Shown piece after piece: positions 23,630 to 25,221 of a stretch of DNA of 37,744 nucleotides. The position numbers were made by a program, and so were the translations under genes. Location of the stretch: positions 1 to 37,744 of the forward strand of contig CABZNY010000012.1 of the NCBI GenBank assembly GCA_902527265.1, in the 5' to 3' direction. This stretch comes from an uncultured Pelagibacteraceae bacterium. GTDB taxonomy: Bacteria; Pseudomonadota; Alphaproteobacteria; Pelagibacterales; Pelagibacteraceae. The notes beneath the pieces are model-generated. The model had not been told where the DNA came from. It did no database searches and was given only the letters and a program-made list of their open reading frames with translations. Each line of letters opens with the position of its first letter. The first letter of the stretch is position 1.

Positions 23630-24559
23630 ATGAAAATATTAGGAATTGGAAATGCAATTGTAGATGTAATTTGTAAAGTAGAAGACGATTTTATAACTAA
23701 AAATAATCTGACTAAAAGTACGATGAAATTAATTTTTGATGACAAAGAATTTAAAGATTTACTATCTAATCTGAAAATAGAAAAAACTGTTTCAGGTGGT
23801 TCTGTTGCTAATTCAATTGTTGGATTATCTCAACTTGGAAATGAAGTTGGATTTATAGGTAAAGTAAATGATGATGATCTTGGTGGAAAATACGAAGATG
23901 GTTTGAAACAGGAGAGTGTTAAATATATTTATTCAAAAAAAAAAGAAGAGTTACCAACTGGAACTTGTTTAATATTAGTTACACCCGACTCTGAAAGAAC
24001 AATGTGTACTTTTTTAGGAACTGCAGGTAAAATAAATGAAAATGATGTTAGTTCGGATGCAATAAAACAAAGTGAAACAATACTTCTAGAAGGTTATCTT
24101 TGGGATGAAGGAGAACCCAAAAAAGCTTTTGAAAAAGCAATTCAGAGTGCAAAAAAAGTTGCTATGTCATTATCGGATCAATTTTGTGTTGATAGACATA
24201 AGCCTCACTTCTTAGATTTAGTTAAAAATAAATTAGATATAACTTTTGCCAATGAACAAGAAATAATGTCTCTGATAGATGCAAAATCTTTTGATGAAGT
24301 AATTAATTTCTCTAAATCGCTTGGCAAAATAATTGTTTTAACAAGAGGTGAAAAAGGTGCAGTTGCAATTAGTGGAGATGAGGTTGCTGAATGTGGAATA
24401 AAAGAAGGTCTTAAAATTGTTGATTTAACTGGTGCTGGTGATCTTTTTGCGGCAGGCTTTTTACATGGTCATGTGAATAAAATGTCACTGAAAGAAAGCT
24501 TGGATAAAGGGACTGAAATGTCCTCTAAAGTTATACAACAAATTGGGGCAAGACTTTAA
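23630..24559 (+). CDS. PfkB-family carbohydrate/nucleoside kinase (adenosine kinase-like)
   Basis: A 309-residue ribokinase-superfamily kinase. The N terminus LGIGNAIVDVICKVEDDF and the early motif GGSVANSIVGLSQLG match the alphaproteobacterial PfkB group often labelled adenosine kinase. The C-terminal signature DLTGAGDLFAAGFLHG carries the catalytic base Asp271. The substrate (adenosine, ribose or fructose) cannot be settled from sequence. It follows nth by three bases and is the last gene of the dapB-nth-kinase run. It converges with the ArfA-like ORF across only three bases. Confidence 0.9.
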   Translation: MKILGIGNAIVDVICKVEDDFITKNNLTKSTMKLIFDDKEFKDLLSNLKIEKTVSGGSVANSIVGLSQLGNEVGFIGKVNDDDLGGKYEDGLKQESVKYIYSKKKEELPTGTCLILVTPDSERTMCTFLGTAGKINENDVSSDAIKQSETILLEGYLWDEGEPKKAFEKAIQSAKKVAMSLSDQFCVDRHKPHFLDLVKNKLDITFANEQEIMSLIDAKSFDEVINFSKSLGKIIVLTRGEKGAVAISGDEVAECGIKEGLKIVDLTGAGDLFAAGFLHGHVNKMSLKESLDKGTEMSSKVIQQIGARL

Positions 24560-24562
24560 AAA

Positions 24563-24670
24563 TTATTTTTTTTTTCTTTTAAAGCTACCTTTCCCTTTTT
24601 TAGGTTTAACAACACGAGTTTTATATTTTGGTGATAATAGATTTTTTGCAATTAGATTTTTTTTTTTCAT
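24563..24670 (-). CDS. ArfA-like ribosome-rescue peptide (35 aa), candidate
   Basis: The ATG at 24670-24668 overlaps the stop of the upstream OmpR-type gene by one base (TAATG), and the frame closes at TAA 24565-24563. The product starts MKKKNLIAKNLLSPKYKTRV and ends KPKKGKGSFKRKKK. The block LLSPKYKTRV-VKPKKGKGSF matches the core of E. coli ArfA ([21 protein letters not shown]), which enters the empty mRNA channel of stalled ribosomes and recruits RF2. The ArfA C-terminal extension is absent. The match covers about 25 residues, so homology is likely but not proven. The one-base stop/start overlap supports real translation. It could otherwise be a short basic RNA- or ribosome-binding peptide. 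Confidence 0.68.
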   Translation of the reverse strand: MKKKNLIAKNLLSPKYKTRVVKPKKGKGSFKRKKK

Positions 24671-25221
24671 TAAATAATATAACCAGACTTTAAACTCTTA
24701 ATAAAAGTTTTATCGTTAAATATATTATTAATTTTTTTTCTTAGTCTATAGATATGTGTTTCAACTGTGTGGGTTTCTAATTTTGAATTATGACCCCACA
24801 CCTCGGTTTGCAATTTACTTATATTTACGGGCTTTTTGGCATTATTTAAAAATATTAAAATATTTGCCTCTCTTTCTGTTAAATTTAAACTAATTTCATT
24901 TTTATGCATTCTTCTTGAATTTAAATTTAATTTATAATTCCCCAAGTTGATTTCAGATTGTTGACTATATTTTTTCTTTAAAAATTTAATATTAATGTTT
25001 TCAATTAATTTATTTATATCAACTGGAAGTTTATTAACAATGATTTGTTCTTCCACATCTTTTTTTTTATCCGATATTATAAGATAATTTTCTAACGAAT
25101 TAAAGTTAAGTTCTTTTAATTTATTTATTTTAATTAAATTAAAGTTTAAATAATTTTCAATTTCACTTAGAATTTCGTATAAAACTTTAAAATCGTAAAT
25201 TACTAAAGTTTGATTATTCAT
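24670..25221 (-). CDS. OmpR/PhoB-type winged-helix regulator with degenerate receiver
   Basis: A 183-residue protein from the ATG at 25221-25219; an upstream in-frame TTG (25242) would overlap the divergent gene. The C-terminal 90 or so residues are a PhoB-like DNA-binding domain: INLGNYKLNLNSRRM, LNLTEREANILIFL, VWGHNSKLETHTVETHIYRLRKKI, and SLKSGYII. The N-terminal 80 residues look like a shortened receiver, with YLIISDKKK where the phospho-Asp strand is expected, and without a clear Lys-Pro switch motif. Control by phosphorylation is therefore doubtful. No histidine kinase is adjacent. The stop overlaps the ArfA-like ATG. Confidence 0.82.
   Translation of the reverse strand: MNNQTLVIYDFKVLYEILSEIENYLNFNLIKINKLKELNFNSLENYLIISDKKKDVEEQIIVNKLPVDINKLIENINIKFLKKKYSQQSEINLGNYKLNLNSRRMHKNEISLNLTEREANILIFLNNAKKPVNISKLQTEVWGHNSKLETHTVETHIYRLRKKINNIFNDKTFIKSLKSGYII

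Follow-up and report, generated by a model that had tools for sequence, protein, structure and literature searches.

Does a reading frame of 35 codons, lying between the genes of a winged-helix regulator and a kinase in a streamlined alphaproteobacterium, encode a ribosome-rescue factor of the ArfA type that has been stripped to its core? ArfA, which frees stalled ribosomes, has mostly been met in the relatives of E. coli, and the question arises in the window analysed here, a stretch of 37,744 nucleotides from an uncultured member of the Pelagibacteraceae. The frame runs from ATG to TAA on the reverse strand (24563..24670, (-)) and encodes MKKKNLIAKNLLSPKYKTRVVKPKKGKGSFKRKKK; a sequence-only reading had taken it for a reduced ArfA with a normal stop codon and no C-terminal extension. 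The frame is a real, conserved and minimal ArfA variant without the non-stop switch, and with good confidence we regard its product as a genuine ribosome-rescue factor of the ArfA family, cut to its functional core, which would recruit RF2, act as a back-up to tmRNA and be expressed without gating.

Family membership and conserved residues

An hmmscan of the peptide against Pfam returned ArfA (PF03889) with 32.6 bits and an E-value of 5.4e-8 over profile positions 12-42 of 44, which lies above the curated cut-off of 25.5 bits and bears out both the family assignment made from the letters and the HMM check that had been proposed for it. PF03889 was the sole Pfam family to match, so that no other basic-peptide family scored higher, and a search of the peptide against NCBIfam gave no match. 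The PF03889 match is unique in its own genome, and across 14 control genomes E. coli alone has one. A sequence search of the PDB gave six matches at E<=10, all of them ArfA chains and the best being E. coli ArfA (E 0.0013); residues 3-35 of the peptide pair with residues 12-44 of chain 5h5u_3, which is 72 residues long, and all three alignments inspected are gapless. The family relationship extends to the SAR11 relatives, as PF03889 matches all 35 proteins of the SAR11 alignment A1 at E<=1. A profile-profile comparison of SAR11 ArfA with 17 ArfA sequences from outside the Alphaproteobacteria, which are taken for gammaproteobacterial and make up 17 of the 26 such ArfA genes in a sample of the phylum, gave a probability of 97.1 and an E-value of 5.6e-11 with both halves of the protein covered, and none of 200 column shuffles reached its score (51.3 against a shuffled maximum of 18.1).

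The residues tell the same family apart into a conserved and a divergent part. Across 132 SAR11 loci, read in two sets of 52 and 80 and comprising 114 distinct copies, the positions that are invariant in the 17 non-SAR11 proteins (N14, F25, K34 G35 K36 G37 and R41) are occupied in every distinct copy by N, Y or F (Y in 109, F in five), KGKG and R. Compared with ArfA (YhdL, PF03889) of gamma- and betaproteobacteria, SAR11 thus shares N14, F25 (as Y/F), KGKG, S38, Y39 (as F/Y) and R41, all without a gap. The KKGKGS codons (24584..24601, (-)), whose conservation had been put forward as a check, are invariant in 114 of 114 distinct copies; the corresponding segment of E. coli ArfA is reported to sit in the empty mRNA channel (PMC5378476, PMC6299226, both available in part). 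The SAR11 protein ends at the equivalent of E. coli residue 44, short of the KH motif, and the window peptide closes on KRKKK, with neither a KH motif nor any histidine. With 35 aa it compares with 52-55 mature residues of ArfA in the accessible text of one report (PMC6299226), and an E. coli ArfA truncated to 40 residues is described as inactive in the available part of another (PMC8012679). Relative to the classical protein and gene, SAR11 ArfA lacks the C-terminal extension, the KH motif and the hairpin inside the ORF, and does not keep L19, L24 and A18.

These last differences bear on the release factor. E. coli ArfA binds RF2 through a patch made up of L19, L24 and F25, and the substitution A18T inactivates the protein, according to the part of the source that is available (PMC5378476). 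In SAR11 just F25 of this hydrophobic patch is retained, as Y/F: the equivalent of L19 is D in 80 copies, E in 18 and N in 13 (111 of 114), that of L24 is K in 107 and R in seven (114 of 114), and that of A18 is K in 106 of 114. On the side of the partner, the RF2 of one relative (G125; L291, aligned to E. coli RF2) has the equivalents of V198, F217 and W319 all present, and that of a second (G012) carries isoleucine at 198 and keeps the equivalents of F217 and W319; in the window's own genome, which is 84.7% complete, a single release factor was found, which is without SPF, and no RF2. Homology makes the use of RF2 by SAR11 ArfA likely, but no other step leaves as much room for doubt, since two of the contact residues, L19 and L24, have changed. 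The protein most likely binds ribosomes stalled at the end of an mRNA that lacks a stop codon, where its basic KKGKGSFKRKKK tail would enter the empty mRNA channel and the protein would recruit and open RF2, leading to release of the nascent chain.

An ArfT-like protein, that is a short, stop-terminated factor using RF1 and RF2 and resembling ArfA in its tail only, would account for part of this pattern. Francisella ArfT, as characterised in the accessible text of its description (PMC6299226), has 40 aa and a basic tail, is made from an mRNA that escapes the arfA-type cut ahead of its stop codon, works with RF1 or RF2 and occurs where ArfA and ArfB are absent; SAR11 ArfA agrees with this description in its short length, in a message that runs through to the stop codon and in the weak conservation of the RF2 patch. 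However, the ArfT tail reads KKGGSTNKK and its residue at the position of F25 is non-hydrophobic, whereas SAR11 keeps KKGKGS and Y/F in 114 of 114 copies and scores to PF03889, a comparison in which ArfT is represented by its description; we hold the ArfT-like reading to be unlikely. A still poorer prospect is a small basic protein that binds ribosomes or RNA, retains the tail for the mRNA channel and recruits no release factor, such as a hibernation or inhibitory factor. The tail is indeed the best conserved part of the protein and the RF2-contact region does diverge from E. coli, but the RF2-facing half has N5 and L11 invariant, A8 in 113 of 114 copies and Y or F at position 16 in all 114, the profile match spans both halves, and the gene is present where ArfB is undetected (see below), which together make a non-recruiting binder very improbable. 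Among the known factors, Bacillus BrfA resembles the predicted SAR11 ArfA in its RF2-dependent rescue and a basic tail placed in the mRNA channel (PMC6881298, in part) and differs from it in its N-terminal helices, its KH motif and an mRNA terminated before the stop codon; the available portions of the two reports describe BrfA as being without sequence homology to ArfA (PMC8012679, PMC6881298).

Conservation and surroundings of the gene

Matches to PF03889 at E<=1e-3 were found in 73 of 101 genomes of the genus (14 of 16 among those at least 90% complete), 45 of the 101 being over the curated cut-off, and in 119 of 197 genomes of the Pelagibacterales (112 of 149 at the same completeness; 64 of 197 over the cut-off). 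Their distribution within the order is sharply divided, with 119 of 144 Pelagibacteraceae genomes and 0 of 53 genomes of the sister family matched. Further afield, PF03889 was detected in 10 of 385 genomes of an alphaproteobacterial sample, three of these being SAR11, and in 27 of 299 genomes of the phylum sample, while a wider profile (A2) matched in 32 of 372 alphaproteobacterial genomes, of which three are SAR11 and some of the others doubtful. A scan of GTDB contigs with a SAR11 profile recovered at least 432 relatives among at least 597 pattern hits, and every one of the 80 relatives kept belongs to Pelagibacteraceae or Candidatus Pelagibacter, which assigns the window to SAR11.

The frame is maintained as a protein-coding gene. 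An in-frame stop codon is present in 132 of 132 SAR11 loci, in agreement with the normal stop codon first read in the window, and the chosen rule assigned a start codon in 131 of 132, giving proteins of 34-42 aa with 35 aa in 75 of them. Over a core of 28 codons in the 114 distinct copies, differences fall on codon positions 1, 2 and 3 in proportions of 27, 16 and 57%, and 971 pairs at >=80% identity, which are not independent of one another, yield pN 0.074, pS 0.498 and dN/dS 0.096. SAR11 arfA is under purifying selection, and the loss of the frame in relatives that would have spoken against the gene did not occur. A spurious frame in a lysine-rich, AT-rich gap, as might be suspected from the K-rich peptide, the AT-rich stretch and the runs of A10 (24566-24575, (-)) and A11 (24657-24667, (-)) at its two ends, can be set aside with near certainty, since frame, stop codon and junction are kept over 132 loci, dN/dS is low, the Pfam match is a curated one and the shuffles fail; a chance or low-complexity match is ruled out by the control genomes, the 0 of 200 shuffles and the same dN/dS. 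The two runs were also considered as conserved slippage sites, which they probably are not: 18 of 51 SAR11 loci have a run of 11-12 at the start, and 12 of 52 have one of 10 at the end. Shorter in many relatives, the runs are probably just AAA lysine codons.

In the window the ATG of arfA lies on the stop codon of the upstream gene, as had been noticed, the two sharing one base (24670) within a TAATG junction (24668..24672, (-)). The upstream gene encodes an OmpR/PhoB-type winged-helix regulator of 182 aa from its ATG (24670..25218, (-); PF00486, 48.2 bits), which an earlier TTG start would extend to 190 aa. On the other side arfA fills the gap to a convergent gene for a PfkB-family kinase (23630..24559, (+); PF00294, 150 bits), again as first read, with 3 bp between the two stop codons. 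Among 124 loci with an assigned start and an upstream ORF, the junction is a 4-nt overlap in 58, a 1-nt overlap in 30 and a spacing of 0 in nine, counts that depend on the rule-based choice of start codon. In the two SAR11 sets a convergent kinase gene was found at 50 of 52 and 78 of 80 loci, and the regulator gene occupies the upstream position at 46 of 52 and 77 of 80. The coupling to a winged-helix gene that had been proposed is thus conserved at most SAR11 loci and is not obligatory: the regulator was not matched in six of 52 loci (one at a contig end) and three of 80, five of the six have a larger upstream ORF of 485-490 aa instead, and an obligatory arfA-regulator pair was accordingly rejected.

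The regulator itself has the DNA-binding Trans_reg_C domain (PF00486) as its single Pfam match, no receiver domain being found by Pfam. An AlphaFold2 model (mean pLDDT 85.3, pTM 0.57) was matched by Foldseek to OmpR/PhoB response regulators, the best being PmrA with an E-value of 1.5e-8 and a low whole-chain TM-score of 0.43. Judging from this model, the upstream protein is a regulator whose N-terminal domain has been shortened; a tie between it and ribosome rescue that goes beyond co-translation would be speculation.

Expression control and the rescue context

Classical arfA carries a terminator/RNase III hairpin ahead of its stop codon, which leads to tagging by tmRNA, and its product accumulates when trans-translation is overwhelmed (PMC3989581, available in part). 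The presence of such a switch was assessed from the best 45-nt hairpin within 140 nt after the KGKGS codons. Of 21 control ArfA loci from outside the Alphaproteobacteria, five were unmatched by the motif expression and 16 were scored, and all 16 fall below z = -2, with medians of -25.6 kcal/mol and z = -5.2. By comparison, one of 26 SAR11 loci (every second of the 52) does so, with a median of -6.5 and a median z of -0.2; a hidden 3' hairpin or non-stop regulation, sought against these positive controls, was thus not found in SAR11. Since the E. coli-type hairpin is missing and an in-frame stop codon is present in 132 of 132 loci, the SAR11 gene is classed as a variant and not as an E. coli-type arfA. 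With an ordinary stop codon and no hairpin of the termination or RNase III type, trans-translation should not shut the gene off, and arfA is probably expressed constantly, or as its operon partner permits, through translational coupling to the regulator gene. On these sequence criteria the reduced, core-only ArfA proposed for a streamlined alphaproteobacterium appears to stand, its family, core, stop codon and missing extension all being conserved. Elsewhere in the class a hairpin precedes the stop codon in four of seven other ArfA-like genes of alphaproteobacteria (L062, L064, L065 and L066), so that classical gated arfA seems to be present there sporadically.

None of the 197 Pelagibacterales genomes has the rescue factor ArfB (NF006718) over its cut-off, and two of the 14 controls do. 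Hits below the cut-off occur in 194 of the 197; among the matches listed these cover 33-36 profile residues, mostly in frames of about 350 aa and in some down to 145 aa, and the four places inspected (two in G125, one each in G000 and G012) proved to encode GGQ release factors, 346-367 aa in length. ArfB as a real back-up was rejected on these grounds, and the SAR11 lineage seems to have lost this factor, which is the usual one in its class. Alphaproteobacterial tmRNA was detected at E<=1e-3 in 52 of 61 genomes, 48 being over the cut-off, and in 18 of 18 among those at least 90% complete; in the window's own genome (84.7% complete) there is a weak tmRNA match and none over the cut-off. Where ArfB is undetectable, SAR11 ArfA would be the sole detected back-up to tmRNA.

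As far as its available text goes, an earlier survey recorded arfA in 0 and arfB in 2,022 of 2,376 Alphaproteobacteria (Callan et al. 2024; PMC11633108); it used nucleotide profiles, which a short AT-rich gene could escape, or so we infer. No description of a SAR11 ArfA was found among the papers listed by text searches of the open-licence literature, where one relevant paper, in its accessible part, names an ArfA of the pelagiphage HTVC027P (PMC12753301).

Look-alikes, phage relatives and wider meaning

Many SAR11 genomes without a PF03889 match carry a different short ORF, with an N..AK.L pattern and a lysine-rich tail and without KGKGS; it was found in 28 of 43 tested, out of 78 such genomes in the order sample. 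A profile of these KGKGS-less relatives (A6, one of whose ten rows is a KGKGS form) gave one match each in 26 of 41 genomes (13 of 22 in the genus, 13 of 18 in the sister family, 0 of 1 elsewhere), and look-alikes in G129 and G151 complete the 28 of 43. On 46 ArfA-bearing genomes the same profile found the arfA locus itself (41) or nothing (five), hence a second gene in 0 of 46, and Fisher's test of 0/46 against 26/41 returned p = 6e-12, a value overstated by the relatedness of the genomes. The look-alikes whose surroundings were read (among L095-L099 and L295-L320) sit at loci other than that of arfA. Nine genomes of the genus have neither arfA nor a look-alike, four of them being listed as 99% complete. 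In four SAR11 genomes with this listed completeness (G127, G130, G131 and G135) a PF03889 match, a look-alike and ArfB over the cut-off are all missing; they would rely either on trans-translation alone or on an unknown factor.

In profile-profile comparison the look-alike set A4 matches SAR11 ArfA with a probability of 97.2, the alignment leaving out GKG, and non-SAR11 ArfA with a probability of 83.5, which is biased upward as the profile that gathered A4 already held ArfA-like rows. Some look-alikes approach DUF7230 (PF23876, cut-off 27 bits), a family without KGKGS and of unknown function: the best SAR11 score equals the cut-off at 27.0 bits and one other alphaproteobacterium reaches 42.8, while further look-alikes score 16.8-22.1 bits or fail to match, the G126 type and one sister-family type being unmatched. 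DUF7230 is touched by one of the 35 SAR11 ArfA proteins (E 0.11) and gave no match to the window protein; in the phylum sample PF23876 occurs in one of 249 genomes.

Relatives of the gene also occur on contigs of marine phages; a scan of viral contigs returned at least 250 of them among at least 600 pattern hits. All 80 viral loci kept (IMG/VR contigs L180-L259) have a short ORF with a KKGKGS-type motif, preceded by NPxA in 69 and by the longer NP[IVM]A[KR]x[VL]RTPK[YF] in 43; 15 of 79 fall below z = -2 in the hairpin measure, and in L221 alone does the hairpin precede the stop codon. Neighbouring genes are clearly viral on three of five contigs probed, with a clamp loader and a translation repressor on L190, an endolysin and a tail fibre on L182, and an exonuclease and a helicase loader on L236; on L241 and on L248 a single neighbour was probed, and neither gave a match. 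A tblastn search with one phage homologue led to Pelagibacter phage HTVC027P, Roseobacter phage CRP-212 and Caulobacter phage Cr30, the ArfA-like ORFs of these named phages being, in order of locus number, L260:15768-15944, L350:1171-1323 and L351:1477-1614, while tblastn of the 35-aa peptides against phages gave no match, perhaps through low-complexity masking. The Cr30 ORF, which extends over the end of one annotated gene, has no annotation of its own; less certain is that of CRP-212, which falls within an annotated gene but in a different frame. Gp30 of HTVC027P has the same arrangement as SAR11 ArfA (NPVAKEVRTPKYK...KPKKGRGSFKR) and is named ArfA in the accessible part of its source (PMC12753301); at 58 aa it has an N-terminal extension, and it scores 20.2 bits to PF03889, under the cut-off.

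The copies in phages suggest that viruses may supply ribosome rescue. Tentatively, and with somewhat more doubt than conviction, ArfA may be seen as a single branch within a wider family of very small factors that recruit release factors, replaced ArfB in SAR11 and are carried by many marine phages; in SAR11 the KKGKGS form and the KGKGS-less form, the latter at unrelated loci and grading into DUF7230, would stand in for each other. If this were true, the DUF7230 family would gain a role in ribosome rescue, and phages would use their own copies to prevent the blocking of host ribosomes as mRNAs are cleaved in the course of infection.

SAR11 is counted among the most abundant cell groups of the ocean in the available part of one report (PMC12753301). 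In 119 of the 144 genomes of this family the core of ArfA is present, with ArfB undetected, and it stands there without the tmRNA-controlled switch that underlies the stand-by role of ArfA. The lineage is an experiment of nature on how little of ArfA suffices, on whether the use of RF2 depends on L19 and L24, and on whether a rescue factor held as a back-up needs to be gated.
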